Position numbers and translations under genes: made by a program. From assembly GCF_012979235.1 (NCBI RefSeq), contig NZ_JAATWC010000001.1, forward strand, positions 563,001-627,000: 64,000 bases of DNA, given 5' to 3'. This document shows, in pieces, positions 951 to 50,682 of the stretch. Numbering within the stretch: the first letter of the stretch is position 1; each line of letters opens with the position of its first letter. The notes under the pieces are model-generated. The model was not told the DNA's origin. It made no database searches and saw nothing but the letters and a program-made list of their open reading frames with translations. This stretch comes from Dissulfurirhabdus thermomarina. Its GTDB lineage: Bacteria > Desulfobacterota > Dissulfuribacteria > Dissulfuribacterales > Dissulfurirhabdaceae.

Positions 951-3676
951 GGCGTTCCTCCCAGGGCGTTCTTCACCGCGGCGAGGAGGGCCTCCAGGGT
1001 GAAGGGCTTCTGGAGGAAGGGGACGGCCGCCTCGCGGATGTGGCGCCACTGGGCCTTCTGGTCGGTGTAGCCGCTGGTGAGGAGCACCTTCATGCCGGGC
1101 GCCCGGGCCGCGAGGTCCCGGACGAGGTCCAGCCCCGTGGCGTCGGGGAGGACCACGTCGCTCAGGAGGAGGTCGAACCCGCCGCCGGCCGACTCGAAAC
1201 ACTCCCGGGCCTCCGCCCCGGAGGCCGCGGCGGTCACCTCGTAGCCGTTTCCGGCGAGGGCCATGGCGGCGAAGTCCCGCACCGACGCCTCGTCTTCCAC
1301 CAGGAGGATGCGTTCCCCCCGCCCCCTGAGCCCGCCGAGGTCGGCCCGGGGCCGGTCCTCCGGGCCGGCGGCCGTCGCGGCGGCCGGGAAGTAGACGGTG
1401 AAGGCGGTCCCGCGCCCGGGTTCGCTCCGGACGTCGATCCAGCCGCCGTGTTCCTGGACGATCCCGTAGACCACCGAGAGACCGAGCCCGGTGCCCCGTC
1501 CCGCCTCCTTGGTGGTGAAGAAGGGCTCGAAGACGTGGGAGAGGGTCTCGGCGTCCATGCCGAGGCCGGTGTCCGCCACCGTGAGGGCCACGAAGCGCCC
1601 CCGGCGCCCGGGGGCGGCCTCGGGTGGGTCCTCGACCCGGACGTTGCGGGTCCGGAGGGTGAGGACCCCGCCCTCCGGCATGGCGTCGCGGGCGTTGACC
1701 GCGAGGTTCATGATCACCTGGTCGACGTTGGCGGCGTCGCCCCGGACGGGCCAGGGGGCGGGCTCGAGGTCGGTCTCCACGGTGATGTCCTCCCCGATGA
1801 GCCGGGTGAGCATCTTCAGGAGGTCCCGGATGGTGGCGTTGAGGTCGATGGAGGTGAACTCCATGGGCTGGCGCCGGCTGAAGAGGAGGAGCTGGCGCAC
1901 GAGGTTGCCCGCCCGGACCGCCGCCCGGTGGATGTAGCGGAGGTCCGCGTGGACGGGGTCCTCCTCCGGGATCTTGAGCAGCGCCAGGTCCGTGTAGCCC
2001 TGGATGGCCGTCAGGAGGTTGTTGAAGTCGTGGGCCACCCCCCCGGCCAGGGTGCCGATGGCCTCCATCTTCTGGGCGTGGAGGAGCTGGGCCTGCATCC
2101 GTTCCCGCTCCTGCCAGGCGCGTTTTCGCTCGGAGATGTCCGAGAAGGTGAGCACCGCGCCGGTGACCTCGCCGTCCTCGAGGATGGGGGTGGCCCGGTA
2201 TTCCACCGGCAGCGGCGAGCCGTCCAGCCGGCGGAGCCCGGCGTCCTCCGCCCGGTGCGGGCGGCCCTGCGCCAGGGTCACCCGCACCGGGTTTCCGGGC
2301 CCTCCAGCCTCCCCGGCCAGCCAGAACTCGTCGACGTCGCGCCCCGTCAGCGCCGCGGGATCGCCCGCCCCCAGGAGGGCGGCGGCGGCGGTGTTGGCGA
2401 AGGTGACCGATCCACCGGCGTCCACGCCGATGATGCCTTCCCCGGCGGAGTTCAGGATGAGCTCGTGGCGGCGGAGCAGCCGGGCCAGGGCCGCCTCCGC
2501 CGCCTTCCGGTGGGTGACGTCCCGGAAGATCCCGCGGGTGGAGACGGGGCGGCCCTCCACGTACTTCGAGTTGCAGCTCCCCTCGAGATGCACCGCCCGC
2601 CCGTCCTTGGCCCGGAAGATGGTCTCCACGTGGGGCATCGCCTTGCCTTCCAGGGCCTCCTGGATGTGGCGGAGACAGGCCTCCCGGCAGGCCGGGTCGA
2701 TGATGTCCTGGAGCTTCAGGGTCTCGAGGTCCTCGTCGGTGTAGCCCAGGACCTCCTTCCAACTGCGGTTGACGAAGAGGAAGGTGCCGTCCGGGGCCAC
2801 GCTCTGGATGAGGTCGCTGGCGTTCTCGAAGAGGTCCCGGAAGAGTTCCTCGCGTTCCTTGAGGGCCTCGGCGGTCTCCCGGCGCTCGGTGACGTCCTCC
2901 AGGGTGCCCTCCAGGTGATCGAGGGCGTCCCCTTCTTCCGCCCGGACGGGCGCGGCGTGGAGCTCGGCCCACAGGATGCGCCCGTCGAGGGCGCGGAGCC
3001 GGGTCTCGAGGGCGGTCTCGGCCTCGCCATCGAGGAGGGCCTTGATCCAGAGCGGGTAGACCTCGGGGTCCAGGAAGAGGTCCGGGAGCCGGCGGCCCAC
3101 CAGGGTGCCGGGCGCCGGGGCGCCGAGGATGCGGACCAGGGCCCGGTTGACGTCGGTGAAACGGCCGTCTGCGTCGCATCGGAAGAGGCCCACGGGGAGG
3201 TTCTGGAAGAGGGCCTGGTAGCGCCGCTCGGCCCTCCGACGGGCCTGCTTGGCCGCGGCCTTGTCGAGGGCGGACCGGGCGGCGGCCGCCAGGCGCACGA
3301 AGTGTTTCGGGGACTTCAGGATGTAGTCGTCGAGCCCCGCCTTCATGGCGGCCACGGCCACCTCCTCGTTGCCCGTCCCTGTGAACATGAGGACCGGGAC
3401 GTCGGGCAGGCGGCGCCGGACCGACCGGAGGACGTCCAGCCCCGTGGTCCAGTGGAGCTGGTAGTCCGTGATGACGAGGTCGAGGTCGCCGGCGGCGATC
3501 CCGGCGTCGAGGGCGCCGGGATCCGAGGCCTGGCGGACCTCGACGCCCGGGAATTCCTTCCGGAGTTCCCGGGTGACCAGCTCCCGGTCGTCCGGGTCGT
3601 CGTCCACCAGGAGGATGCGGGGTGCCGGCTCCGCGGGGGCGGCGCGGGCGGTGGGATCCTTCGTCTTTTTCGTCAT
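947..3676 (-). CDS. Hybrid sensor histidine kinase: REC-PAS-PAS-PAS-HisKA-HATPase-REC
   Basis: The 909-residue protein opens with a receiver domain (residues about 20-140, phosphoacceptor Asp71 in VITDY). Three PAS domains follow, each with a PAC-like tail (about 165-285, 290-410, 420-530). The HisKA domain has His549 in [11 protein letters not shown], then a HATPase domain (N-box [13 protein letters not shown]-box GTGLGLSVV), then a C-terminal receiver with Asp840 in LLLSDVVLP. No transmembrane segment is seen, so it is probably a cytoplasmic sensor. ATG at 3676 was chosen because the upstream in-frame sequence is low-complexity and runs antisense-free into the next gene. It lies 110 bp after the GAF-domain kinase and overlaps the NDH-2 start by GTGA. 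The signal and downstream partner are unknown. Confidence 0.9.
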
Positions 3677-5137: not shown

Positions 5138-7105
5138 TCAGATCACGCGGTCGTTTCCGCCATCCACGGGGACCTGGGCCCCGGTGGTCCGGGCGAAGAG
5201 GGGGCCGAGCATCTCGGCGGCCATCTCCGCCACGTGGGTCCGGGAGACCTCGGCCCGGAGGATGTTCTTCCGCTTGTACTCGGCCACGCTGAGTCCGTAG
5301 GCCTCGGCGCGCGACCGGAGGACCTCCTCGGTCCAGATGCCGGTGTCGAAGACGGCGTCGGGGTGGATGACGTTGACCCGGATTCCCTCCGCCCCCCATT
5401 CCAGGGCCGCCACCCGGGCCAGCTGGGTGAGGGCGGCCTTGGAGGCGGAGTAGGCCGCGGCGCCCGGCCCGGGGGCGGGGACGTTCTTCGAGCCGATGGC
5501 CACCACCCGGCCGCCGCCGGGCGCGAGGGCGAGGAGGGGATGGCAGAGGCGCAGGAGGTCGAGGTTGGCGTCGAGGTTCACACGGAGGACGCGGCGCCAT
5601 TCCGTTCCCTCGAGTTCGGCGATGGGTCGGCTCCGGGGGAAGACGCCGGCGTTGAGCACCAGCATGTCCACGCCGCCGAAGCGCTCGCAGGCGGCATCCA
5701 GCGCCGCCTCGAGGGCCGCCGGGTCGGTGATGTCACAGGCGAGGCCCAGGTAGGCGGGGGCGTCGTGGCGGTCCGCCACAGAGGGGTCCACGTCGAGGCC
5801 CACCACGGCGGCCCCCCGGCGGAGGAGAGCCTCGACGCAGGCCGCCCCGATCCCCGAGGCCGCGCCCGTCACCAGGGCCGTCTCGCCGGCGAAGACGGGC
5901 GGCGGGCCGGCCCGCCGGAGCTTGGCCTGCTCGAGGTCCCAGTACTCCACGGCGAAGATGGCCTCGGGGGGGAGCGCCCGGTACCCGCCGAGGCAGGTCG
6001 CCCGCTCGATGACGTCCATGGTGTGGCGGTAGATGTCGGCCACGATCCCGGCCTCCCGGGCGCTCCGGCCGGCGGCGGCCATGCCGAGCTCCGGGTCCAG
6101 GACGACCCTGGGGGCGGGGTCGAGCATGGTGACCGGGGCCCGGGCCGAGGCCGAAAGGGCCTCGAACTCGGCCCGGTAGGCCCGGGCGTAGGCCGCCACG
6201 TCGCGGCCGAGGAGGGGGAGCCGCTTGGTCCGGATCACGTGGTCGGGGGTGGCGGGGCCCTCACGGGCGATCACGTCCAGGTCCGGCCGGGTGACGAAGG
6301 CGAAGGTGCGCGGGCTCCGGTCGAAGTGGAGGAGGAAGGGGACCCCGGCCGCTTCGGAGACCGCGCGCCGGAGCCGCGCCGCCTCAAGCCGCGGGAAGGG
6401 CGGCGGGGCCTCGGCCGGGGCGGTGGTCACCCGGGCCCCCCGGGTCTCGAGCTCGGCATCGGCCATCTCCACCAGGCGGATCATGCGGTCGTAGGCCTCC
6501 TTGGCCGTTTCGCCGAAGCTGAAGACCCCGTGGTTCATGAGGACCATGCCGATGGTGCGCGGGGTGCGCTCCCCGGGGAAACGCTCGGCGCAGGCCCGGG
6601 CGAGGTCGAAGCCCGGCATCACGTAGGGGATCACCACCACGAGGTCCCCGTAGAGGTCCCGGACCCGGCGCTCGCCGTCCGCGGTGTTGGTGAGGGTGAC
6701 CACCGCGTCGGCGTGGGTGTGGTCCACGTACCTGAAGGGGAGCAGGGCGTGGAGGATGGCCTCGATGGAGGGCGTGGGGGCGTCCGCCCGGGTGAGGGCG
6801 GTCCGGAGCTCGTTCACCATCTCCGGGTCGGAGAGGCGCTCGAGGCCCGCCAGGTGGAGGAGCCGCGAGAGGCGGACCGGTGCGAAGCCCGCCGGCTCGA
6901 TGGTGGCCAGGTCCCACCCCGATCCCTTGACGTAGAGGATGTCGTCCTCCCCGTAGAGGGTGGTCTCCCGGATCTTGACCGAGGTGTTGCCCCCGCCGTG
7001 GAGGACGAGGCTCGCGTCGCGGCCGAGGAGACGTGAGGTGTAGACCCGGAGACCGAGGTCGCCCTCGAAGCCCCGGGCCTCGCGGTCGTCCCAGAGGTTG
7101 CGCAT
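5138..7105 (-). CDS. Bifunctional class II aldolase / short-chain dehydrogenase (RhaD-like)
   Basis: The 655-residue protein has an N-terminal class II aldolase domain (about residues 1-400) with the metal-binding HTHAD motif and MNHGVF. Its C-terminal short-chain dehydrogenase domain (about 420-655) has the NAD-binding loop TGAASGIG and the catalytic YSASK. Family members such as RhaD/RhaL-type fusions cleave rhamnulose 1-phosphate or related deoxy-ketose phosphates and oxidise the lactaldehyde product. The exact sugar cannot be read from sequence. ATG at 7105 was chosen for its AGGAG site; the open frame extends 27 residues further upstream in arginine-rich sequence. No kinase, isomerase or sugar transporter is adjacent, so it may act on a scavenged or internally made sugar phosphate. 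Confidence 0.85.
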   Translation of the reverse strand: MRNLWDDREARGFEGDLGLRVYTSRLLGRDASLVLHGGGNTSVKIRETTLYGEDDILYVKGSGWDLATIEPAGFAPVRLSRLLHLAGLERLSDPEMVNELRTALTRADAPTPSIEAILHALLPFRYVDHTHADAVVTLTNTADGERRVRDLYGDLVVVIPYVMPGFDLARACAERFPGERTPRTIGMVLMNHGVFSFGETAKEAYDRMIRLVEMADAELETRGARVTTAPAEAPPPFPRLEAARLRRAVSEAAGVPFLLHFDRSPRTFAFVTRPDLDVIAREGPATPDHVIRTKRLPLLGRDVAAYARAYRAEFEALSASARAPVTMLDPAPRVVLDPELGMAAAGRSAREAGIVADIYRHTMDVIERATCLGGYRALPPEAIFAVEYWDLEQAKLRRAGPPPVFAGETALVTGAASGIGAACVEALLRRGAAVVGLDVDPSVADRHDAPAYLGLACDITDPAALEAALDAACERFGGVDMLVLNAGVFPRSRPIAELEGTEWRRVLRVNLDANLDLLRLCHPLLALAPGGGRVVAIGSKNVPAPGPGAAAYSASKAALTQLARVAALEWGAEGIRVNVIHPDAVFDTGIWTEEVLRSRAEAYGLSVAEYKRKNILRAEVSRTHVAEMAAEMLGPLFARTTGAQVPVDGGNDRVI

Positions 7106-39270: not shown

Positions 39271-40713
39271 TCAGCCCGGTTCGGCCGGCTCCGCCGCGTC
39301 GCCGTCGCGGCGGAGCGGCAGCCACAGGCGGAAGCGGGCCCCGGGCCCGGGGTGCTCCTCGAGGGTGAGCCGCCCCCCGTGGGCCTCGACGTAGGCGCGG
39401 GCCAGGGCGAGGCCGAGGCCGCGCCCGGATCCCGCGCGGCTCGGGTCTCCGCGGGTGAAGCGCCGGAAGATCCGTTCCCGGTCGGCGGGCGGGACCCCCG
39501 GCCCGGAGTCCTGGACGAGGAGGCCCAGGCCGCCCGGGCCGGCCTCGGCCCAGAGCCGGATCCGCCCGCCCGGCGGGGTGAAACGGATCGCGTTCTCGAG
39601 CAGGTTGGCCAGGGCCTGGCGGAGGCGGACCCGGTCGGCGGCGACGGCGGCTGGAGCACCGGGGCCCGGGGCCTCCACGAGGAGCTCGATGCCCCGATCC
39701 CGCGCGGCCGGGCCGAAGAAGGCCGCCAGCTCTCCGAGGAGCGCCCCGACGTCCATCGGTTCCACGCGAAGCCGCAGGAGCCCGGCCTCGGCCTCCGACA
39801 GGTCGAGCAGGGCGTTGAAGAGGGCGGTGCAGCGGTCGCACTCCTCCATGATGTGGGCGAGCGGTTCCTGGGCCCCGGGAGCCTGGGCCGCCGCCAGGGC
39901 GGTCTCGGCCATGGCGCGGATCCGGGTGATGGGGGTCCGGAGGTCGTGGGCCACGTTGTCCAGCATCTCCCGCTGCGTGCGGAGCAGGGCCTCGATCCGG
40001 CCGAGCATGGCGTTGAAGGTCGCGGCGAGGCGTGCCGGTTCGTCCCGGGCACCGCCTTCCGGCACGCGTCGGGAGAGGTCTCCCCCGCCGGCGATGTCGG
40101 CGGCCACCCGCCGGATCTCTTCCACCGGCCGGAGTCCCCGGCGGGTCACGAACCAGCCCAGGGGCAGCGCCAGGGCCAGGGCGAGCACGGTGCCCCAGGC
40201 CATGAGGTTCCGGATCGGGTTCAGGAGGCGGACGTCCCAGGCGGCGGGCAGGGCCACCTGGCAGGTGTAGCCCCCGCCGACGGGGAGGGTGAGCAGGCGG
40301 GCCTCCCGCCACGGCCGGGCGGGGATGGCGAGGCGCCGGATCCGGCCGGCGGCGCCGCCCGCCGGGTCGAGGGCCGGAAGCGGCACCTCGCCCCAGGGCC
40401 GGCGGTCCGTCTCGAGGACGACGCGGCCCGCAGGGTCGAAGAGGCGGGCGTAGTAGTTCTCGGGTCCCTCGCCGGCCGCCTCGTCGAGGATCTCGGCACG
40501 CACGGCCGCGAGGCCGCCCTCCCGGAAGGCGAGGCGGTATTCCCCGATCTCCTCCCGGAGCTCCGCCCCCACGTCCTGGTCGAGGACGCGGCCGAGGAAG
40601 TGGTAGGTCCCCCAGAAGAGGCCGAGCGTCGCCATCGCGAAGACGCCCGCTGTGAAGAGCGTCATCCGCGCCGCCAGGGAGAGCCGGCGCCTAGGGCTCG
40701 TCGCGGAGGACAT
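39271..40713 (-). CDS. Membrane sensor histidine kinase (CusS/IrlS-like)
   Basis: The 480-residue sensor has a first transmembrane helix (LFTAGVFAMATLGLFWGTY), a periplasmic sensor of about 150 residues, a second helix near residue 185, a HAMP linker (RRGLRPVEEIRRVA), a HisKA domain with His256 in DNVAHDLRTPITRIR, and a HATPase (NLLENAIRFTPPGG and GRGLGLALA). It partners the response regulator it overlaps by 23 bp. ATG at 40713 is used; ATG at 40665, after the regulator's stop, is the main alternative. Similarity is closest to metal-sensing kinases, but position opposite an arn-like operon suggests an envelope or cation signal. Confidence 0.88.
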   Translation of the reverse strand: MSSATSPRRRLSLAARMTLFTAGVFAMATLGLFWGTYHFLGRVLDQDVGAELREEIGEYRLAFREGGLAAVRAEILDEAAGEGPENYYARLFDPAGRVVLETDRRPWGEVPLPALDPAGGAAGRIRRLAIPARPWREARLLTLPVGGGYTCQVALPAAWDVRLLNPIRNLMAWGTVLALALALPLGWFVTRRGLRPVEEIRRVAADIAGGGDLSRRVPEGGARDEPARLAATFNAMLGRIEALLRTQREMLDNVAHDLRTPITRIRAMAETALAAAQAPGAQEPLAHIMEECDRCTALFNALLDLSEAEAGLLRLRVEPMDVGALLGELAAFFGPAARDRGIELLVEAPGPGAPAAVAADRVRLRQALANLLENAIRFTPPGGRIRLWAEAGPGGLGLLVQDSGPGVPPADRERIFRRFTRGDPSRAGSGRGLGLALARAYVEAHGGRLTLEEHPGPGARFRLWLPLRRDGDAAEPAEPG

Positions 40714-41368
40714 AGCCGACGCCACGGATGGTGTGGATGAGGGGGGAGGCGAAGCCGCGGTCGACCTTGTTCCGGAGCCGGCAGATGTGGACGTCCACCA
40801 CGTTGGTCCCGGCGTCGTAGAGGTAGCCCCAGACGTGCTCGAGGATCTGCGTGCGGGTGAGGACGCGCCCCGCGTTCCGGGCCAGCGCCACCAGGAGGTC
40901 GAACTCCTTGGGCATGAGGTCGAGGCGGCGGCCCGCCCTGGAGACGCGGCGCGCGGCCAGGTCGATCTCGAGGTCGCCGGTCCGGATCCGCGCCGCCGAT
41001 GGCTGCCCGGCGCCCCGGCGGACCAGGGCACGGACCCGGGCCAGGAGCTCGCTGAAGGAGAAGGGCTTCGAGAGGTAGTCGTCGGCCCCGTCTTCGAGGC
41101 CCCGAACCTTGTCCTCCACCGCGCCCCGGGCGCTCAGGATGAGGATGGGGACGGAGGGGTTGCCCCGCCGCACCGACCGGACCAGGGAGAGGCCGTCGAT
41201 CCCGGGCAGCATGACGTCCACCACGAGGCAGTCGAAGACCTCTTCGCGGGCGCGTTCGAGTCCCGAGGGGCCGTCGGCCGCCGTCACCACGGCGCAGCCC
41301 GCCTCGCGGAGCCCCTTGGCGAGGTAGCGCGCCGTCTGGCGGTCGTCTTCCACGACGAGGATCTTCAT
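40691..41368 (-). CDS. OmpR-family response regulator (CusR/PmrA-like)
   Basis: The 225-residue regulator begins MKILVVEDDRQTARYLAKGL. It has phosphoacceptor Asp51 in VVDVMLPG, the switch lysine in YLSKPFSF, and a C-terminal winged-helix DNA-binding domain (PKEFDLLVALARNAGRVLTR; VVDVHICRLRNKVD). It is transcribed with its kinase and divergently from the arn-like operon. The shared intergenic DNA carries an inverted/direct repeat that suits an OmpR-type dimer. In enteric bacteria PmrA, of the same family, activates arn; here that is inference from position and site. Confidence 0.93.
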   Translation of the reverse strand: MKILVVEDDRQTARYLAKGLREAGCAVVTAADGPSGLERAREEVFDCLVVDVMLPGIDGLSLVRSVRRGNPSVPILILSARGAVEDKVRGLEDGADDYLSKPFSFSELLARVRALVRRGAGQPSAARIRTGDLEIDLAARRVSRAGRRLDLMPKEFDLLVALARNAGRVLTRTQILEHVWGYLYDAGTNVVDVHICRLRNKVDRGFASPLIHTIRGVGYVLRDEP

Positions 41369-41590
41369 GGTCCTTCGGCGCCCCCGGCCGCACGAAGCGG
41401 CCGGGGGCCTCTGGGCCCTTCGCCCTTCCGCGCCGCGCCGCCGGACCGCGGGGCGGCCCCTCGGGAGATGGCCGGGTCCGTCGTCTGTCCCGGTGGGGCC
41501 ATGGTGCCGCAGCCGGCGCCGGAGGTCAACACGGCCGGGGGGAGGGGACGGCGATCGGGGCCCCGCGGCGATGGCGGCGGGGCCATCGAA

Positions 41591-41620
41591 GATGACAGAA
41601 ATTTCATCCACCTGTCATCC
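41591..41620. promoter_or_regulatory. Candidate response-regulator binding site between the two-component system and the arn-like operon
   Basis: GATGACAG (41591-41598) and CTGTCATC (41612-41619) form a perfect 8-bp inverted repeat. The same DNA also holds a direct repeat, TTTCATCC (41602-41609) and TGTCATCC (41613-41620), with an 11-bp step, the spacing OmpR-type dimers use. ATGACA/TGTCAT halves recall CusR/CopR boxes. It is 69 bases before the preferred start of the first arn gene. The rest of 41369-41688 shows no gene. Confidence 0.55.
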
Positions 41621-41688
41621 TCGTTCAAGAAAGGCCGCCTAGGATGTCCGCCGTGGGCCCCGCGGGCCGGGGCCCGTGGAGGATACGG

Positions 41689-43386
41689 GTGGCGGAACGA
41701 TCGGCGGACATATCCCCCCGGGATGGGCGGCGGGTTTCCGCGGCGGCGGTCCTCTTCTGGGCGGCGGCCGTGGTCGTGCTCTTCTGGGGGCTCGGCGGCC
41801 GGGCCCTCTGGGGGCCGGAGGGCCGCTGGGCCGAGATCGTCCGGGAGATGTTCCTCGCGGGTGACTTCTTCCACCCCCGCCTGAACGGTTTTCCCTACTT
41901 CGACAAGCCACTCTTCTCCTACTGGGGCATCGCGCTGGCCTCCGTCGTGACGGGCGGGCTCGACGAGTGGGCGGTCCGCCTGCCCTCGGCCGTGGCCGGC
42001 CTCGTGGCCCTCTGGGCCACGGTGACCCTGGGTGCCCGGCTCTGGTCCCGGCGGGCCGGGTGGATCGCCGGGTGGATCCTGCTCACCACCGCCGGGTTCG
42101 CCGGGTGGGCCCGGGTCGGGAGCGCCGACGCCGCCAACCTGGCCGCCGTCATGGCGGCCGTGGCCTGGTACTGGGCGCGACGGGACGAGACGGGGTTCGG
42201 CGCCTACCTCGGCTTCTACCTGATCTGTGCCCTCGGCGCCCACTTCAAGGGGCTCACCGCGGTGGCCGTACCGGCGGCGGCCCTTCTCCCCGACCTCGCC
42301 CGGGGCGGCCGCTGGCGCCGCCACCTCAACCCGGCCCACGCCGCCGCCCTCTCCCTGGGGGTCGTGGCCTATCTCCTCCCCTTCCTCTACGCGGACCTGG
42401 CCGCCGGCGCCTACGGCGAAAGGGGGCTCTTCATGGCCTTCCGGGAGAACGTGGTCCGCTATGTCCACCCCTTCGACCACCGGGAGCCCTTCTACGTCTA
42501 CTTCCGTTATCTCCCGGTGCTGCTGCTCCCGTGGACGCCGCTCTCGGCGGGGGCCCTCGCCGACATGGCCGCCGGGTACCGCCGGCTGGATCCCCGGGCC
42601 CGCTGGGTGCTCGAGGCGGCCGGGGCGGTCTTCCTCTTCTTCACCCTCTCCGGTTCCCGCCGAAGCTACTACATCCTGCCGGTGATCCCATTCTGCGCCC
42701 TGGCCGGCGCCGCCTACCTCGACGGGATCGGGGGACGGACGCGGTGGCGGGAGGCGGCCGTCCGCCTCCAGGCGGGGGTCTTCGCCGTCCTCGCCGCCGC
42801 CGAGATCGCCGGGGCCCTGGCCTGGCCCTGGATCCGGGCGAAGGCGGGCTGGCCCGAGGTCCCCGGCCTCCGGCTCGGCGGAGCCGCCGTCGGCACGGGC
42901 ATGCTGCTGGCCCTCTGGGCCCCCAGGCGCCTCCGCCCGGCCCCGGGGTGGCCCCCGGCCGTGATGGGCCTCTTGGCCTCGGCGGCGGTGGCGGCCGCCG
43001 GCGTCTTCGCGGTGCAGCAGCCCCAGTTCGAGGCCTTCCGGACGGAGAAGCCCTTCCTCCTCGGGCTCAAGGCGGCCGCCCGGGGGGTGCCCCCCGAGCG
43101 GATCGGGGTCTACGGCAAGCTGATGTCCAACCTCTACTTCTACCTCGACGAGCCGCGCCCGGTGGCCCTCTTCCTCGGCACCGGGGACCTGTGCCGTTTC
43201 CTCGAGGCGCCGGGGCCGAAGGTGATCGTGGCCCGGGCCGAGGACCTCGACGTCATCCGCTGGGCCCTGCCGGCCGCGGTCGTCGAAAGGCCCCTCCTCG
43301 TCTCCCGGGCCTGGCCCCGGCTCGGGAAGGAGGCGGCCCGGCTCTTTGCTTGGCGGCTGGAGGGGGATGTCCGCTGCCACCGCTAA
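41689..43386 (+). CDS. ArnT-like glycosyltransferase (GT39/PMT family), copy 1
   Basis: The predicted inner-membrane enzyme moves a lipid-linked sugar to a target such as lipid A. The 565 residues (from GTG at 41689) contain about twelve hydrophobic helices. The first periplasmic loop has the family acidic motif WGPEGRWAEIVREM; FPYFDKPLFSYW and FRTEKPFLL are conserved. GTG at 41689 has GGAGG six bases upstream; ATG at 41644 gives 580 residues but lacks a good site. It is clearly homologous to the second copy at 46032. ArnT transfers 4-amino-4-deoxy-L-arabinose; whether this copy or the second does so is open. Confidence 0.82.
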   Translation: MAERSADISPRDGRRVSAAAVLFWAAAVVVLFWGLGGRALWGPEGRWAEIVREMFLAGDFFHPRLNGFPYFDKPLFSYWGIALASVVTGGLDEWAVRLPSAVAGLVALWATVTLGARLWSRRAGWIAGWILLTTAGFAGWARVGSADAANLAAVMAAVAWYWARRDETGFGAYLGFYLICALGAHFKGLTAVAVPAAALLPDLARGGRWRRHLNPAHAAALSLGVVAYLLPFLYADLAAGAYGERGLFMAFRENVVRYVHPFDHREPFYVYFRYLPVLLLPWTPLSAGALADMAAGYRRLDPRARWVLEAAGAVFLFFTLSGSRRSYYILPVIPFCALAGAAYLDGIGGRTRWREAAVRLQAGVFAVLAAAEIAGALAWPWIRAKAGWPEVPGLRLGGAAVGTGMLLALWAPRRLRPAPGWPPAVMGLLASAAVAAAGVFAVQQPQFEAFRTEKPFLLGLKAAARGVPPERIGVYGKLMSNLYFYLDEPRPVALFLGTGDLCRFLEAPGPKVIVARAEDLDVIRWALPAAVVERPLLVSRAWPRLGKEAARLFAWRLEGDVRCHR

Positions 43387-43526: not shown

Positions 43527-43898
43527 ATGAACCGGTATCTCCCTCTCATCCTCGCCGGGGTGCTGCTCAACGCCCTGGCCCAGCTCGCCCTCAAGCAGGG
43601 CATGCGGGTGGTGGGCCCCTTCGCCTTTCGCCTCGAGGGGCTGGCCGGCCTCTGCCTCGAGGTGGCCCTGAACCCCTACGTGCTCGCGGGCCTGGCCTGC
43701 TACGTGGTGAGCGTGGTGGTGTGGCTCATGGTGCTCTCCCGGGTGGATGTGAGCTACGCCTACCCGCTGCTCAGCGTGGGCTACATCGTGACGGCTCTGG
43801 CCGGGAAGGCCTTCTTCGGCGAGGCCCTCGGCCCGGTCCGCTGGGCCGGGATCCTGGTGATTTGCCTCGGCGTCTACCTCGTCACCCGGAGCGCCTGA
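43527..43898 (+). CDS. arnE: SMR/EamA-type small flippase subunit (ArnE/ArnF-like)
   Basis: The 123-residue, four-helix protein of the small multidrug resistance type has LPLILAGVLLNALAQLALKQG at the start, and WLMVLSRVDVSYAYPLLSVG then VRWAGILVICLGVYLV in the second half. In Escherichia coli ArnE and ArnF form a heterodimer that flips undecaprenyl-phosphate-aminoarabinose across the inner membrane. Only one such gene is present here, so a homodimer, or a second subunit elsewhere, is needed. The ATG at 43527 lies 140 bp after the ArnT-like gene and two bases before the arnB start. Confidence 0.8.
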   Translation: MNRYLPLILAGVLLNALAQLALKQGMRVVGPFAFRLEGLAGLCLEVALNPYVLAGLACYVVSVVVWLMVLSRVDVSYAYPLLSVGYIVTALAGKAFFGEALGPVRWAGILVICLGVYLVTRSA

Positions 43899-43900
43899 AG

Positions 43901-45085
43901 ATGACCCCGACGGATCGGCCCGTCCGCGAGACGTTCCTCCCGTTTTCGCGTCCCACCATCGGCCAGGCGGAGATCGACGAGGTGGTGGACTCGCTCCGTT
44001 CGGGCTGGATCACCACGGGGCCCAAGGTGGCCGCCCTGGAAAAGGCCTTCTCCGACTGGAGCGGGGGGCGCGAGGCGGTGGCCGTGAACTCCGCCACGGC
44101 CGGGCTCCACATCCTGTTGTGCACCCTCGACCTCGCCCCGGGCGATGAGGTGATCACGACGCCCATCACCTGGCCCTCCACGGTGAACAACATCGAGATT
44201 CTGGGCGCCCGGCCGGTCTTCGCCGACGTGGACCGGGAGACCCTCCAGATCGACCCCGCCGAGGTGGAGCGGCGGCTCTCCCCGCGGACCCGGGCGGTGA
44301 TCCCCGTCCACTTCGCCGGCGCCCCGGCCGATCTCGACGCCCTCCGGGCCCTCTGCGAGCCCCGGGGCATCCCGGTCCTGGAGGACGCCGCCCACGCCGT
44401 GGGCACCCGGTACAAGGGCCGGCTCGTGGGCGCCGAGGGCGAGGCCGCGGTCTTCAGCTTCCACCCCATCAAGAACATGACCACCGGGGAGGGGGGGATG
44501 GTGCTCTGCGCCGACCCGGAGCGGGCCGCCCGGATGCGCCGGCTCCGGTTCCACGGGATCTCCCGCGACGCCTGGCGGCGCTACGCCAAGGGCGGCGTCC
44601 CCCAGTACGAGGTGGAGGAGCCCGGCTTCAAGTACAACATGCTCGACATCCAGGCCGCCATCGGGCTCCACCAGTTCGCCCGGCTCGAGGAGTTCAACCG
44701 GCGCCGGGCGGAACTGGCCGCCCGGTACCACGAGCTCCTCGCCGGCATCCCCGAGGTCCGGCCTCTGGGCGGGGTCCCCTATCCCCACGTCCACGCCTGG
44801 CACCTCTACGTGGTCCGCCTGGAGCTCGAGGCCCTCGCCGTGGACCGGGACCGGTTCATCGCCGAACTCCAGGCCGAAAACATCGGGATCGGGCTCCACT
44901 TCCCGGCGGTGCACCTCCAGAAGTACTACCGGGAACGCTACGGCTTCCGGCCCGGGGATCTCCCCCGGGCGGAGTGGAACGGGGAACGGCTCTTTTCGCT
45001 CCCCCTCTACCCGCTGCTGGAGGAGGCCGACCAGGCGGACGTCGCGGCGGCGCTCGAGCGGCTCGTCCGTCGGTTCCGGAGGTAG
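43901..45085 (+). CDS. arnB: UDP-4-amino-4-deoxy-L-arabinose--oxoglutarate aminotransferase
   Basis: This PLP-dependent DegT/DnrJ/EryC1-family enzyme adds the amino group to the UDP-4-keto-pentose. The 394-residue protein has the standard family start FLPFSRPTIGQAEIDEVVD, the loop NSATAGLHILL, VLEDAAHAVGTRYKG, and the PLP lysine in FSFHPIKNMTTGEGG. The start follows the flippase stop by two bases. The next gene follows after six bases, consistent with one operon. Confidence 0.95.
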   Translation: MTPTDRPVRETFLPFSRPTIGQAEIDEVVDSLRSGWITTGPKVAALEKAFSDWSGGREAVAVNSATAGLHILLCTLDLAPGDEVITTPITWPSTVNNIEILGARPVFADVDRETLQIDPAEVERRLSPRTRAVIPVHFAGAPADLDALRALCEPRGIPVLEDAAHAVGTRYKGRLVGAEGEAAVFSFHPIKNMTTGEGGMVLCADPERAARMRRLRFHGISRDAWRRYAKGGVPQYEVEEPGFKYNMLDIQAAIGLHQFARLEEFNRRRAELAARYHELLAGIPEVRPLGGVPYPHVHAWHLYVVRLELEALAVDRDRFIAELQAENIGIGLHFPAVHLQKYYRERYGFRPGDLPRAEWNGERLFSLPLYPLLEEADQADVAAALERLVRRFRR

Positions 45086-45091
45086 CGCAGG

Positions 45092-46051
45092 ATGCCCGGC
45101 GAGACGGCCCCCCGGCTCTCCATCGTGGCCCCCATGTACAACGAGGCGGCCAACGTCGCCGAGTTCTGCCGGCGGCTCTTCGCCGTTCTGGCGGAGGTGC
45201 CCGAGCCGTGGGAGGTGGTCTGCGTGGACGACGGCTCCACGGACCGGACCCTCGAACTCCTCCGGGCGGAGCAGCGCCGGCGCCCCGGGCTCCGGGTGGT
45301 GCGGCTCGCCCGCAACTGCGGCCAGCACGGGGCCGTCATGGCGGGCTTCGCCGAAAGCCGCGGGGAGTGGGTGATCACCCTGGACGCCGACCTCCAGAAC
45401 CCGCCGGAGGAGATCCCGAGGCTCCTGGCCGCCTTCCGCGAGGGGCACGACCTGGTGGGGACCTACCGGGTGGGGCGCCGCGACACCCGGTTCCGGAAGT
45501 GGGCCTCTCGGGTCACCAACCGGCTCATCACGCGGATCTCCGGGATCTCGCTCCGGGACTTCGGCTGCATGCTCCGGGGATACAGCCGCCGCGTGGTGGA
45601 TGGCATCCTCCGAAACCCCGAGTACCGGACCTTCATCCCGGCCCTGGCCACCTTCTTCGCGGCGAACCCCGTGGAGATCCCGGTCCGACACGAGGCGCGG
45701 GCCGGGGGCGACTCCAAGTACTCGCTCCTCAAGCTCCTCGGCCTCCAGCTGGACCTCATGACGGGCTTTTCGCTCTGGCCGCTCCGACTCCTCTTCCTGG
45801 TGGGGTCGGGGCTGGCGGTGGCGGGGCTCGCCATGGCGGCCCTCATCCTGGTGCTCCGGTTCGTCCTGGGGGCGGAGTGGGCCGCCCAGGGGGTCTTCAC
45901 CCTCTTCGCGGTGCTGTTCTTCTTCGTGGGCGGGCAGTTCTTCGCCCTGGGGCTCCTCGGGGAATACATCGGGCGGATCTTCCAGGCGGTCCGGCGGCGG
46001 CCGGCCTACCTCGTCGGAGAGGTGTACGAGCATGGCGACGACGCTCCTTGA
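45092..46051 (+). CDS. arnC: Undecaprenyl-phosphate 4-deoxy-4-formamido-L-arabinose transferase
   Basis: The 319-residue GT2-family enzyme has the donor-binding APMYNEAANV and VCVDDGSTDRT motifs and the metal-binding DADLQNPPEE. Two C-terminal membrane helices (about residues 230-295) anchor it to the inner membrane. In the arn pathway it moves the formylated sugar from UDP to undecaprenyl phosphate on the cytoplasmic face. Its 3' end overlaps the second ArnT-like gene by 20 bp. Confidence 0.93.
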   Translation: MPGETAPRLSIVAPMYNEAANVAEFCRRLFAVLAEVPEPWEVVCVDDGSTDRTLELLRAEQRRRPGLRVVRLARNCGQHGAVMAGFAESRGEWVITLDADLQNPPEEIPRLLAAFREGHDLVGTYRVGRRDTRFRKWASRVTNRLITRISGISLRDFGCMLRGYSRRVVDGILRNPEYRTFIPALATFFAANPVEIPVRHEARAGGDSKYSLLKLLGLQLDLMTGFSLWPLRLLFLVGSGLAVAGLAMAALILVLRFVLGAEWAAQGVFTLFAVLFFFVGGQFFALGLLGEYIGRIFQAVRRRPAYLVGEVYEHGDDAP

Positions 46052-47720
46052 GCGCCGGCAGACGGCCGGAGACCTGCTCTTCTGGACCGCGGCCGCGGTC
46101 CTCCTCTTCTGGGGGCTCGGGGACCGTGGGCTCTGGACGGCGGAGGGCCGGTGGGCCGAGATCGTCCGGGAGATGTTCCGCTCCGGCGACTACTTCCACC
46201 CCACCATCAACGGGGCGGCCTACTTCGACAAGCCGCTTCTCACCTACTGGCTCATCGCGGCGGCCGCCAAGGTGCTGGGCGCCCTGGACGAGCTGGCGCT
46301 CCGGCTGCCCAGCGCGGCGGCGGGGCTTGCGGCCCTGTGGGGGCTCCGCGACATGGGCGCCCGCCTCTTCTCGCCCGGGGTGGGGCGGGCGGCGGGCTGG
46401 ATGCTGCTCACCTCCTACGGTTTCCTCTTCTGGGCCCGGGCCGGGACCGCCGACATGGAGAACCTCGCCGCCGTCACCCTGGCCGTGGCCTGGTACCTTG
46501 CACACCGGGAGCGGCCGGGGTTCTGGAACTATCTGGCCTTCTGGCTCATCTGCTTCGTCGGCGCCGAGACCAAGGGGCTCACCGCCGTGGTGGTGCCGGT
46601 CCTGGCCGTGGCGGCCGACCTCTACCTCCGGCGGGACTGGTCCGCGCTCCGGGACCCTCGGAACATCGCCGCGGCCCTGCTGGCCGCCGGGGTCTACCTC
46701 GTCCCCTTCGTCTATGCCGGCCTCACCCGGCCCGGCTACGAGGAGAGCGGCCTCGCCCTGGTCTTCCGGGAGAACGTCCAGCGCTTCTTCCAGCCCTTCG
46801 ACCACAAGGAGCCCTTCTACGTCTACCTCTACTACCTCCCCATGCTGCTGCTCCCGTGGGCGCCGCTTTTCCTGGCCTCGCTGGCCGGCGCGCCCCGCTG
46901 GTGGCGCGGGGTCCGGGACGGGGCCTCCCGGGCCGCGCCGGAGACCTGGGTCTTCCTGGCCCTGGTGCTGGTCTTCTGCTTCTTCACCGCCTCGGGGTCG
47001 CGCCGCAGCTACTACATCCTGCCGGCGCTGCCCTTCGCCGCGTTGTGGATGGCCGCCGGGTTCGAGCACCCGGCGGCGGTCTTCGGCCGGTGGGCGGGCG
47101 CGGCCCTCCGGGTGCAGGGCGGGTTCCTGGCACTGGCGGGCCTTGCGGCCCTGGCCGCGGCCGCCGCGACCCCCCTCTGGGAACGGCGCCTGGGGTTCGT
47201 GCCCCCGCCGGGCCTTGCGGCCCTGGTGGCGGGGATGGGGCTCGCCGCGGCCGCAGCCGGTGCCGCGGCGGCCTTCTCCTCCCGCCGCCTCGGGCCCGGC
47301 GGCCGGGCCCGGGCCGCCGTCGCCGCCGCGGCCGTCCTCATGGGGGGGTATTTCCTCGGCTGCCTCGGGCTCCTCGAACCGTACCGGACCGAGAAGCCCT
47401 TCGCCCTGGCCCTCAAGCGGGAGCTCGCCGCGACACCGGGGGCCCGGGCGGCCTTCTACCGGAAGGCCTCCCCGAACACCATCTTCTACCTCGATCCGCC
47501 GGCGGACATCCCGGTGCTGGCCGACGCCGCGGCGGTCCGGGCCTTTCAGGAGGGGCCGGGGGTCCCGGTCCTCGTCTCGCGGAGGAAGTATCTGGCGGAA
47601 CTCGCCCCCCTGGGCCTCGACCCGGCGGCGGCGTCTCTCGCCGAGCCGGTCCGCCCCTGGGAGGGGCGGGCCCGGAGAAAGCTCGTGGCCTGGCGGCTGC
47701 GGGCGGGCGGGGGGAGGTAG
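46032..47720 (+). CDS. arnT: ArnT-like glycosyltransferase (GT39/PMT family), copy 2
   Basis: The 562-residue multi-helix inner-membrane transferase has the acidic loop WTAEGRWAEIVREM, DKPLLTYWLIA and YRTEKPFALAL. It shares the same overall plan as the copy at 41689 and is of similar length. It starts inside the end of arnC, as is common for tightly coupled genes, and sits directly before the formyltransferase. In enteric arn operons arnT follows arnD. ArnT uses undecaprenyl-phosphate-aminoarabinose to decorate lipid A phosphates. Which of the two copies does this, or whether both act on different acceptors, cannot be told. Confidence 0.85.
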   Translation: MATTLLERRQTAGDLLFWTAAAVLLFWGLGDRGLWTAEGRWAEIVREMFRSGDYFHPTINGAAYFDKPLLTYWLIAAAAKVLGALDELALRLPSAAAGLAALWGLRDMGARLFSPGVGRAAGWMLLTSYGFLFWARAGTADMENLAAVTLAVAWYLAHRERPGFWNYLAFWLICFVGAETKGLTAVVVPVLAVAADLYLRRDWSALRDPRNIAAALLAAGVYLVPFVYAGLTRPGYEESGLALVFRENVQRFFQPFDHKEPFYVYLYYLPMLLLPWAPLFLASLAGAPRWWRGVRDGASRAAPETWVFLALVLVFCFFTASGSRRSYYILPALPFAALWMAAGFEHPAAVFGRWAGAALRVQGGFLALAGLAALAAAAATPLWERRLGFVPPPGLAALVAGMGLAAAAAGAAAAFSSRRLGPGGRARAAVAAAAVLMGGYFLGCLGLLEPYRTEKPFALALKRELAATPGARAAFYRKASPNTIFYLDPPADIPVLADAAAVRAFQEGPGVPVLVSRRKYLAELAPLGLDPAAASLAEPVRPWEGRARRKLVAWRLRAGGGR

Positions 47721-47723
47721 CCC

Positions 47724-48641
47724 GTGTCCGTGGTCCTCTTCGGCTACGGCGACATGGGGCGGACGGCCTACCGGGTGCTCCGGGGGCTGGGCGTGTCCGT
47801 CCCGGCGGTCTTCACCCACCGCGACGACCCGGGGGAGACCCGGTGGTTCGGGTCGCTGGCGGAACTCGCCGATGGGGACGGGGTCCCGGTCTTCGCCCCG
47901 GAAGACGTGAACCGCCCGGAGTGGGTGGCGCAGATCCGGGACCTGGCGCCGGACGTCATCCTTTCCTGCTACTACCGGCGGATGATCGGCGAGGAGATCC
48001 TCCGCCTGCCCCGGATCGCCGCCTTGAACCTCCACGGCTCGCTCCTTCCCAGGTACCGCGGCCGGTGCCCGGTGAACTGGCAGATCCTCCACGGCGAGCG
48101 GGAGGGCGGGGTGACCCTGCACCACATGGTGCGCCAGGCGGACGCAGGCGACATCGTGGGCCAGCGGGCCGTCCCCATCGCCGAGACCGACACCGCCCTC
48201 GACCTCTTCCGCAAGTGCGAGCAGGCGGCGGCGGAGCTCCTGCGCGAGATGATCCCGAGGGTCCTCGACGGCACGGCGCCGCGGGTTCCCCAGGATTCGT
48301 CCCGGGCCACCTACTTCGGCGGCCGGCGGCCGGAGGACGGCCGCATCGACTGGTCGTGGCCGGCCCGCCGCATCTACAACCTGGTCCGGGCCGTGGCCTG
48401 GCCCTACCCCGGGGCCTTCGGGTTTCTCCGGGGGCGGCGGCTCATCGTCTGGTGGGCGGAACCGGCCCCGGCCGCCCCCGGTCCCGCCCCGCCGGGCACG
48501 GTGCTGGAGGGGGGCGCCGCACCGGTGGTGGCCGCGGGGGAGGGGGCGCTGCGGCTCGTGACCGTGAGCGAGGCCGGGGCCGGCCCCGACACTCCCCTGG
48601 ATCTCGCCGCCCTGGTCCGGCCGGGGGACCGGTTCGAGTGA
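47724..48641 (+). CDS. arnA: UDP-4-amino-4-deoxy-L-arabinose formyltransferase (ArnA N-terminal half as a separate gene)
   Basis: The 305-residue enzyme transfers a formyl group from N10-formyltetrahydrofolate. Its N-terminal Rossmann part begins VVLFGYGDMGRTAY. The active-site motif LNLHGSLLPRYRGRCPVNW has Asn and His, and the Asp comes from QADAGDIVGQ. It ends with the C-terminal formyltransferase domain. In E. coli this domain is fused to the decarboxylase in one ArnA protein; here the protein stops after domain one and the decarboxylase is the next gene, 80 bp on. GTG start at 47724. Confidence 0.92.
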   Translation: MSVVLFGYGDMGRTAYRVLRGLGVSVPAVFTHRDDPGETRWFGSLAELADGDGVPVFAPEDVNRPEWVAQIRDLAPDVILSCYYRRMIGEEILRLPRIAALNLHGSLLPRYRGRCPVNWQILHGEREGGVTLHHMVRQADAGDIVGQRAVPIAETDTALDLFRKCEQAAAELLREMIPRVLDGTAPRVPQDSSRATYFGGRRPEDGRIDWSWPARRIYNLVRAVAWPYPGAFGFLRGRRLIVWWAEPAPAAPGPAPPGTVLEGGAAPVVAAGEGALRLVTVSEAGAGPDTPLDLAALVRPGDRFE

Positions 48642-48721: not shown

Positions 48722-49777
48722 ATGAAACTGCTCGTCCTGGGAGTCAACGGATTCATCGGCAGTCACCTCACCCGGCGGGTCGTGGCCGAGACCGACTGGG
48801 AGATCTACGGGATGGATCTCGCCGCCGACCGGCTCGGCGACATGGTGGACCACCCCCGGGTGCACTACATCGAGGGCGACATCTCCATCAACAAGGAGTG
48901 GATCGAGTACCACGTGAAGAAGTGCGACGTGTGCCTCCCCCTGGTGGCCATCGCCACCCCGGCCAGCTACGTCCGCGACCCCCTGGCCGTCTTCGAGCTC
49001 GACTTCGAGGAGAACCTCCGGGTGGTGCGCCAGTGCGCCCGCTACGGGACCCGGGTGATCTTCCCCTCCACCAGCGAGGTCTACGGGATGTGCCCGGAGC
49101 CGCCCTTCAACGAGGAGACGAGCCTCCTGGTCTACGGTCCCATCCACAAGCAGCGCTGGATCTACGCCTGCGCCAAGCAGATGATGGACCGGGTCATCTG
49201 GGCCATGGGGCAGCACCGGGGCCTGCGCTTCACCTTGATCCGGCCCTTCAACTGGATCGGGGCCGGGCTCGACACCCTGGCCACCCCCAAGGAGGGCAGC
49301 TCCCGGGTGGTGACCCAGTTCCTGGGCCACCTGCTCCGGGAGGAGCCCATCAACCTGGTGGACGGGGGGCGCCAGCGGCGCAGCTTCACCTACGTGGACG
49401 ACGGGCTCGACTGCCTGCTCGCCATCCTCCGGAACGAGGGCGGGCGGTGCGACGGCCGGATCTTCAACATCGGCAACCCCGCCAACGACGTCTCCATCCG
49501 GGAGCTGGCGGAGCTCATGATCGACGTCCTCAAGGAGTTCCCGGACCTCGCTCCCCTGGCGGAGAAGGCCGAGCTGCGCGAGGTCTCCGCCGAGGCCTTC
49601 TACGGCAAGGACTACCAGGACATCGGCGCCCGGGTGCCGGACATCACCGCCGCCCGCGAGGTGCTGGGCTGGGAGCCCAAGATCGGCCTCCGGGAGGCCC
49701 TCCGGCGCACCATCGCGGCCTACGTGGCCGACTGGCGCGCGGCACGGGAGGCCCTGGACCCGGCCGGGGGCGCATGA
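48722..49777 (+). CDS. UDP-glucuronate C4-decarboxylase (ArnA C-terminal half as a separate gene)
   Basis: The 351-residue short-chain dehydrogenase/epimerase-type enzyme oxidises and decarboxylates UDP-glucuronate to the UDP-4-keto-pentose used by ArnB. It has GVNGFIGSHLTRRVV for NAD binding, the catalytic PSTSEVYGMC segment and the YxxxK pair in IYACAKQMMD. The arginine of RRSFTYVDDG matches the ArnA decarboxylase residue, unlike ordinary UDP-glucose epimerases. ATG at 48722 starts a compact protein with no formyltransferase domain. Its stop overlaps the next start as ATGA. Confidence 0.9.
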   Translation: MKLLVLGVNGFIGSHLTRRVVAETDWEIYGMDLAADRLGDMVDHPRVHYIEGDISINKEWIEYHVKKCDVCLPLVAIATPASYVRDPLAVFELDFEENLRVVRQCARYGTRVIFPSTSEVYGMCPEPPFNEETSLLVYGPIHKQRWIYACAKQMMDRVIWAMGQHRGLRFTLIRPFNWIGAGLDTLATPKEGSSRVVTQFLGHLLREEPINLVDGGRQRRSFTYVDDGLDCLLAILRNEGGRCDGRIFNIGNPANDVSIRELAELMIDVLKEFPDLAPLAEKAELREVSAEAFYGKDYQDIGARVPDITAAREVLGWEPKIGLREALRRTIAAYVADWRAAREALDPAGGA

Positions 49778-50682
49778 GCCGCGGCGCCCCCGTGGCCCTC
49801 AAGGTGGACGTGGACACCCACGACGGCATGCGCCGCGGGGTGCCCGTCCTCCTGGAGATCCTGGCCCGCCGCGGGGTCCGGGCCACCTTCTTCCTCTCCT
49901 TCGGGCCGGACAACGCCGGCAAGGCCGTCTTCCGCCTCCTGCGAGAGCCGGTCTTCCTGAAGAAGATGCTCCGGACCGGGGCCCCGAGCCTCTACGGCTG
50001 GCGCACGGTGCTGTCCGGGACGCTGCTCCCGGCCCGGCCCATCGCCTCGGCCTTCCCGGATCTCGTGCGCCGGATCGAGGCGGAGGGCCACGAGGCGGCG
50101 GTGCACGCCTGGGACCACCGGCGCTGGCAGGACCACCTGGACCGGATGGACCGGGCGGCGGTGGCGGCGGAGTTCGGGCGGGCCTTCGCGGCCTTCTCCG
50201 GCATCCTTGGGCGCCCGCCCCGGGCCACCGCCGCCCCGGGGTGGCAGGCCACGGCGGTGAGCCTCGAGGTCCAGGACGGGCTGGGGTTGCGGTACGCGAG
50301 CGATCTCCGGGGCGGCCCGCCCTGCCGCCTGCGCGCGGCGGGGCGGGCCTTCCGGACCCTCCAGGTCCCCACCACCGGGCCCTGCATCGAGGAGCTGCTG
50401 GCCGTGGGGGTCCGGCGGGCGGCGGATCTCCGCCGCGCCCTCCTGGATGCCCTGGCGGGCGAGCCCTTCCCGGTGCTCGCCGTGCACGCCGAGGTGGAGG
50501 GGGGACCCTACGCCGAGTTCTTCGATGCGCTCCTTTCGGAGCTCCTCGCCCGCCACGCGGGGATCCGCACCCTGGAAGCGACGGCCGAACGGGTGCTCGC
50601 CCGGCCGGAGGCCGTCCCCGTCCGCGAACTGGCCCGGGCGTGTCTTCCGGGCCGGGCCGGCACGGTGGCGACCTCGGGCTGA
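49774..50682 (+). CDS. arnD: 4-deoxy-4-formamido-L-arabinose-phosphoundecaprenol deformylase
   Basis: The 302-residue polysaccharide deacetylase-type enzyme removes the formyl group from the lipid-linked sugar. The opening ALKVDVDTHDGMRRGVPVLLE contains the catalytic Asp pair typical of ArnD. HAWDHRRWQDH supplies metal-binding histidines, and ATAAPGW is the conserved deacetylase loop. It overlaps the decarboxylase gene as ATGA. This makes the pathway complete from UDP-glucuronate to the lipid carrier; transfer to lipid A needs the ArnT-like proteins. Confidence 0.92.
   Translation: MSRGAPVALKVDVDTHDGMRRGVPVLLEILARRGVRATFFLSFGPDNAGKAVFRLLREPVFLKKMLRTGAPSLYGWRTVLSGTLLPARPIASAFPDLVRRIEAEGHEAAVHAWDHRRWQDHLDRMDRAAVAAEFGRAFAAFSGILGRPPRATAAPGWQATAVSLEVQDGLGLRYASDLRGGPPCRLRAAGRAFRTLQVPTTGPCIEELLAVGVRRAADLRRALLDALAGEPFPVLAVHAEVEGGPYAEFFDALLSELLARHAGIRTLEATAERVLARPEAVPVRELARACLPGRAGTVATSG

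Follow-up and report, generated by a model that had tools for sequence, protein, structure and literature searches.

A CusR/AgrR-like operator candidate between a two-component system and an arn-like operon in Dissulfurirhabdus thermomarina

The divergent gap between a two-component system and an arn-like operon of Dissulfurirhabdus thermomarina carries a site that resembles CusR/AgrR-type operators, and we consider it likely, from its sequence and setting, that this site is an activator-binding element of the arn promoter that serves the adjacent CusR-like regulator. The site lies in a 64,000-nucleotide stretch of DNA (hereafter the window; G+C content, 72.4%) of a 2.46-Mb genome in 34 contigs. 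Most of what is known about the regulation of aminoarabinose addition to lipid A comes from PmrAB, PhoPQ and a handful of Pseudomonas systems. If our reading is correct, the same output would depend here on another branch of the OmpR family, that of the copper-type regulators, and a switch with the construction of the E. coli copper-response switch would do a different job, decorating the outer membrane with a positively charged sugar. The locus is organized as follows.

39271..40713, minus strand: sensor histidine kinase; the 5' end of its gene overlaps the 3' end of the regulator gene
40691..41368, minus strand: OmpR/PhoB-type response regulator, nearest to the CusR/CopR/SilR (heavy metal) subfamily
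41369..41688: divergent intergenic region, bounded by the regulator start (41368, on the minus strand) and the GTG at 41689, which is the predicted arnT-like start
41678..41682, plus strand: Shine-Dalgarno-like GGAGG ahead of the first arn gene
41689..43386, plus strand: ArnT-like GT39 transferase 1
43527..43898, plus strand: ArnF/ArnE-like EamA subunit
43901..45085, plus strand: ArnB-like aminotransferase
45092..46051, plus strand: ArnC-like glycosyltransferase
46032..47720, plus strand: ArnT-like GT39 transferase 2
47724..48641, plus strand: ArnA-like formyltransferase
48722..49777, plus strand: ArnA-like UDP-glucuronate oxidase/decarboxylase
49774..50682, plus strand: ArnD-like deformylase

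For each activity of the operon, an Arn-type model was the best or second-best NCBIfam match. The cut-off was passed only by the formyltransferase (PRK06988, 352.8/316) and the oxidase/decarboxylase (PRK11908, 564.7/294), the scores for ArnB (492/631), ArnC (362/529), ArnD (226/382), ArnF (61/99) and ArnT (105/567) lying below theirs. Because most of the operon proteins fall under the Arn-model cut-offs, 4-amino-4-deoxy-L-arabinose is the sugar that we infer. The operon contains two ArnT-like GT39 transferases that are 49% identical to each other, and the second (46032–47720) may act with another sugar or another acceptor. The ArnF-like product of 43527–43898 was the sole small EamA flippase subunit seen in the operon; enterics have ArnE plus ArnF as flippase subunits. 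An Rfam search returned two tRNAs and nothing else.

The original prediction proposed a symmetric operator in the divergent region, made of a perfect 8-bp inverted repeat and accompanied by an 11-bp-stepped direct repeat. Both repeats are present in the gap at 41369–41688, between the two-component regulator and the arn-like operon. The inverted repeat, exact over 41591–41619, consists of GATGACAG (41591–41598) and CTGTCATC (41612–41619) separated by a 13-bp spacer, and the direct repeat of TTTCATCC and TGTCATCC at 41602 and 41613. The arrangement GATGACAG-N13-CTGTCATC occurs once in the window (0/100 shuffles) and once in the genome. Inverted repeats as such are cheap in this GC-rich gap, which holds eight perfect ones of 8 bp with spacers of up to 30 bp, mostly GC-rich and several of them overlapping; at least one was obtained in 54.5% of 2000 shuffles of the gap. 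An inverted-repeat arm with at least four A/T was found in 0.95% of the shuffles, an 11-bp-stepped 6-mer repeat alone in 22.75%, and the latter combined with such an arm in 0.4%.

Read as an operator of the CusR/AgrR type, the same sequence is ATGACA-GAAA-TTTCAT-CCACC-TGTCAT, that is, a 6-4-6 box at 41592–41607 followed by a further half-site in phase. The elements of this reading are listed below.

41592..41597, minus strand: inverted half-site, left half of the 6-4-6 box (ATGACA on the plus strand, TGTCAT on the minus strand)
41602..41607, plus strand: half-site TTTCAT, which closes the 6-4-6 box on the right and is the first of the tandem half-sites
41613..41618, plus strand: TGTCAT, the second of the tandem half-sites, in phase after a downstream step of 11 bp
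41624..41629, plus strand: degenerate third half-site position TTCAAG, weak
41640..41645, plus strand: predicted −10 TAGGAT, beginning 38 nt after the first base of TTTCAT

In Cupriavidus metallidurans, the OmpR-family regulator AgrR, which controls silver resistance, binds the 6-4-6 box ATKACANNNNTGTMAT, and at its promoters an extra in-phase direct half-site aids activation and a good −10 goes with a poor −35 (PMC7380067). The window agrees with this consensus at 11/12 positions, the lone mismatch being TTTCAT for TGTCAT, a score reached in 0/2000 shuffles of the gap and in 1/2000 shuffles of its 70-bp AT-rich island. Two further reports give TGACA-N4-TGTCA as a binding site of both CopR and CusR (PMC12428095) and AAAATGACAAnnTTGTCATTTT as the site of E. 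coli CusR (PMC11195947). From the E. coli cusC operator, ATGACA-N4-TGTCAT with TGTCAC 11 bp on, the window deviates at two of 18 positions, and a score of 16/18 was found in 0/2000 shuffles of either the gap or the AT-rich island. When up to 3/18 mismatches were allowed, the cusC pattern matched once in the 2.46-Mb genome, at the window site, and its reversed control did not match; the template likewise gave a single match within the window (0/100 shuffles). These two comparisons bear out the resemblance to CusR-type TGACA/TGTCA boxes that the original prediction had noted. Other near matches in the genome were set aside, the one on contig C7 lying inside a ferredoxin-like frame and the one on C8 inside a glycosyltransferase-like frame.

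A consensus scan of the gap found no σ70-type −35/−10 pair. TAGGAT at 41640–41645 is likely to be the −10 of the arn operon, in which case transcription would start near 41652. On the side of the regulator gene, TANNNT was absent at the corresponding distance from the box, so autoregulation from this box is unsupported. In the mechanism that we propose, the divergently encoded CusR-like regulator, when phosphorylated, would bind both the 6-4-6 box and the in-phase half-site at 41613–41618, which would occupy the −35 position. The bound regulator would recruit RNA polymerase to a promoter with a fair −10 and no −35, and the partner kinase, by sensing envelope stress, would switch on the modification of lipid A with 4-amino-4-deoxy-L-arabinose; binding, activation, phosphorylation and signal are here what we infer, as is the sugar.

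The assignment of the regulator is consistent with such a site. It contains a receiver domain (PF00072) and a winged-helix domain (PF00486, Trans_reg_C), both over cut-off, and its score against the CusR/CopR/SilR model TIGR01387, 253 bits, is below the cut-off of 279.2 yet the best among 99 matching models; it scored 198 bits against a PhoB model and 176.4 bits against a PmrA model (cut-off 330). The kinase scored 209.7 bits against TIGR01386 (CusS), under the cut-off of 292.55, and heavy-metal two-component models still gave its best scores. Its extracytoplasmic loop is about as long as that of CusS but lacks the His-rich HGHGHMEH stretch, and beyond residue 35 the N-terminal region of the kinase has one His as against 12 in CusS. 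Because the His-rich loop is absent, CusS-type sensing is unlikely, and we regard copper or silver sensing by this kinase as doubtful. A paralogue of the regulator, 53% identical to it, is encoded near one end of contig C13, with the 6-4-6 palindrome CGACATAAATGTCG just before its frame (L072:9317–9331).

Several known systems share part of this arrangement. The likeness to AgrR consists of the 6-4-6 inverted repeat, the extra half-site in phase and the good −10 with a poor −35; the regulator is a different one, and the AgrR targets named in its description are of the metal-resistance type (PMC7380067). E. coli CusRS has the same divergent layout of regulator and target, but it controls an RND copper pump rather than arn, and the sensor loops differ as described above. 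In the PmrAB–arnBCADTEF system, an OmpR-type regulator activates arn, a feature that the window system would presumably share; the sensor loop of E. coli PmrB/BasS is much shorter than that of the window kinase. The PmrA consensus is YTTAAKN5YTTAAK. The window site differs from this consensus at three positions, a level expected about 17 times in the window by chance, which supports the original prediction in regarding it as unlike the PmrA site. ColRS of Pseudomonas and RaxRH of Xanthomonas are likewise two-component systems near lipid A remodelling genes, being tied to that process and located close to PAP2/LpxE and ArnT genes (PMC4074579, PMC8306577). The ColR site is the T-tract motif ACGNNTTTTTNAC (PMC2689224), which differs from the window site. 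No CusR/CopR-type regulator of arn was found in the literature searched, which omits most subscription journals and is therefore weak evidence of novelty.

We compared the locus with 45 other genomes of the same order (46 with the window's own), order being the nearest level tested; the relatives' regulators that were used are about 48–59% identical to the window regulator. A regulator–kinase pair of this kind shares the analysed stretch with arn genes in seven relatives (G004, G013, G016, G020, G023, G039 and G040), and in G031 it lies on a contig without arn genes. In G004 and G013, which represent two genera of one family, the arn operon is directly behind the regulator and kinase genes, with a site in between. 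A site precedes the regulator gene of G016, divergent from arnC, and the same site precedes that of G031; the unlinked arnA operons of these two genomes, on contigs other than those of the regulators, are also preceded by sites, as are arnC and arnA in G040 and arnC in G023. The pattern ATKAMA-N4-KKTMAT, derived from the window, G016 and G031, gave eight matches without mismatch in 40 stretches; six of them adjoined this two-component system or its arn operon, two of the six being the pattern's own sources. In all six, a −10-like hexamer (TATAAT in G004, TATACT in G012) begins 38 nt past the second box half, as in the window. Upstream of 23 other regulator loci, an AgrR-like box stood above shuffles in some only, so that it is no general feature of the sequence immediately ahead of this gene. 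In a tree of 26 regulators, the arn-linked ones were clustered (4 changes; 3/500 shuffles as low) without forming one clade, and the window regulator, on a long branch, joined G003b and G012b (93/89) and not the arn-linked clades.

The half-site sequence behaves differently from the spacing. A sequence-only model, R1, was built on ten sites of the relatives, with the window left out; six of the ten form three pairs whose members resemble each other and come from related genomes. Run on the window with filters off, R1 returned nothing up to E 10; it misses the window site because the half-sites of the relatives are KGTAAT-like and those of the window TGTCAT. Both versions fit the AgrR consensus, the two changed positions being its K and M. 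At the columns conserved between G016 and G031 the window agreed in 23/44, as did 5/20000 same-base shuffles in the fixed register; the value became 0.0015 once all offsets and both strands were allowed. Outside the 16-bp box, 11/26 conserved columns agreed, a level equalled at 3333/127886 window positions (2.6%). A search with the exact pattern and up to three mismatches found matches in 45/46 genomes, which makes it uninformative about conservation; fewer than two mismatches occurred at the window site only. The conservation in relatives that the original prediction had called for therefore holds for the geometry and spacing before arn genes and not for the exact half-site sequence: within the order, the layout is kept, the half-site sequence is not.

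These comparisons also bear on other readings of the site. It is very unlikely that we are dealing with a chance AT-rich island devoid of any regulatory role: composition alone gives the gap many repeats, but two independently published operators are matched beyond nearly all shuffles, and the cusC template matches nowhere else in 2.46 Mb. We consider it highly improbable that the outer 8-bp palindrome is the functional element, bound by a symmetric dimer across its 13-bp spacer, with the inner repeats incidental. Although the palindrome is exact and unique in the genome, its match follows from the presence of two good half-sites in the array, and the relatives have in common the 6-4-6 box, the half-sites 11 bp apart and the distance to the −10 but do not share the outer spacing. 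We thus rejected it as the operator and replaced the symmetric element of the original prediction with the inner box and tandem half-sites, which fit better.

The 11-bp step is shared by PhoB-family sites, and the direct-repeat pair has one mismatch to TGTCAYN5TGTCAY, as would suit a Pho box from which PhoB drives arn under phosphate starvation; moreover, the triple-repeat pattern described below matches two sites on a phoU-carrying contig of G011. However, the genome's own pst-phoU region contains no TGTCAYN5TGTCAY match at up to two mismatches, and the gaps before its porin and pstS genes carry, by eye, TAAC repeats with an 11-bp step in place of TGTCAT (contig C10, L267:3850–4030 and 5324–5397; probable Pho boxes). 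These repeats argue against a Pho box at the window site, as do the inverted half-site ATGACA, an AgrR/CusR feature, and the higher score of the adjacent regulator on the heavy-metal model than on that of PhoB, and we hold this reading to be quite unlikely. Another CusR-family regulator, such as the contig C13 paralogue, could instead be the main binder. This close paralogue has a 6-4-6 palindrome of its own, and in Pseudomonas one site is common to CusR, CopR and CzcR (PMC11195947). Nevertheless, the palindrome of the paralogue uses a different half-site, the window site adjoins its own two-component pair, and in relatives, too, this regulator subfamily is linked to arn, making a non-adjacent binder unlikely.

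In the preferred reading, the adjacent CusR-like regulator would activate arn. The fixed spacing between half-sites and −10 offers a simple rule with which the regulon could be found and its driving signal tested. The box with TANNNT at the fixed distance and no mismatch matched 26 times in the 46 genomes, compared with nine matches of the reversed pattern. Of the 26, ten were the window site or fell at loci with arn, PAP2/RND or two-component genes, and they include the G016 and G031 arnA operons; four of the other 16 were examined, comprising one glycosyltransferase-like frame, one ABC-transporter-like frame and two unremarkable places. Over the 46 genomes, R1 gave 23 rows at E up to 0.011: its ten training sites, two matches overlapping these on the opposite strand, and 11 others, all intergenic and 26–371 bp ahead of the next reading frame. 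Ten of these 11 have arn, PAP2, RND, GT39 or two-component genes as neighbours, and the eleventh (G004:C1:1325725) is ahead of a different, lipid-type cluster. Several of the sites consist of three half-sites 11 bp apart, as before arnC of G040 (GGTAAT-N5-GGTAAT-N5-GGTAAT-N10-TATGCT). A triple-repeat pattern with a −10 matched 90 times at up to two mismatches, against 50 for reversed controls; of 14 matches with at most one mismatch, 11 were examined and nine were beside arn, GT39, RND or two-component genes. Phylum-wide, a cusC-like pattern with at most one mismatch occurred in 3/395 genomes, the window's own among them, and the 1.5-kb flanks of the two other sites contained no match to arn, regulator, kinase, PAP2 or RND genes.

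Evenly poised, in our judgement, is the wider proposal that a CusR/CopR-derived system has been rewired throughout the order to a cationic-stress/lipid A regulon (arn, PAP2 phosphatase, GT39, RND pump and the system's own genes, plus a small lysine-rich exported protein in one family) by means of half-sites 11 bp apart and a −10 at fixed distance, the half-sites having changed in step from KGTAAT to TGTCAT in the window lineage while the layout stayed the same. Two of the triple-repeat matches, in two genera, provide a promoter with −10 before a small lysine/alanine-rich exported protein (L262:4525–4794 in G004; L265:5138–5404 in G013). This layout is also seen in sites ahead of a PAP2-like gene, behind which lie outer-membrane-factor and efflux genes (L193:2024–8260 in G020, L206 in G035 and L100 in G023). 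In G036 a site is directly behind the kinase gene and is followed by the gene for an 878-aa protein that starts with a GT2-like domain (L074:3840–6476). G040 contains two copies of a divergent arnA/arnC pair (L068:5716–8569 and L101:12509–14581), each with triple half-site promoters facing both ways.
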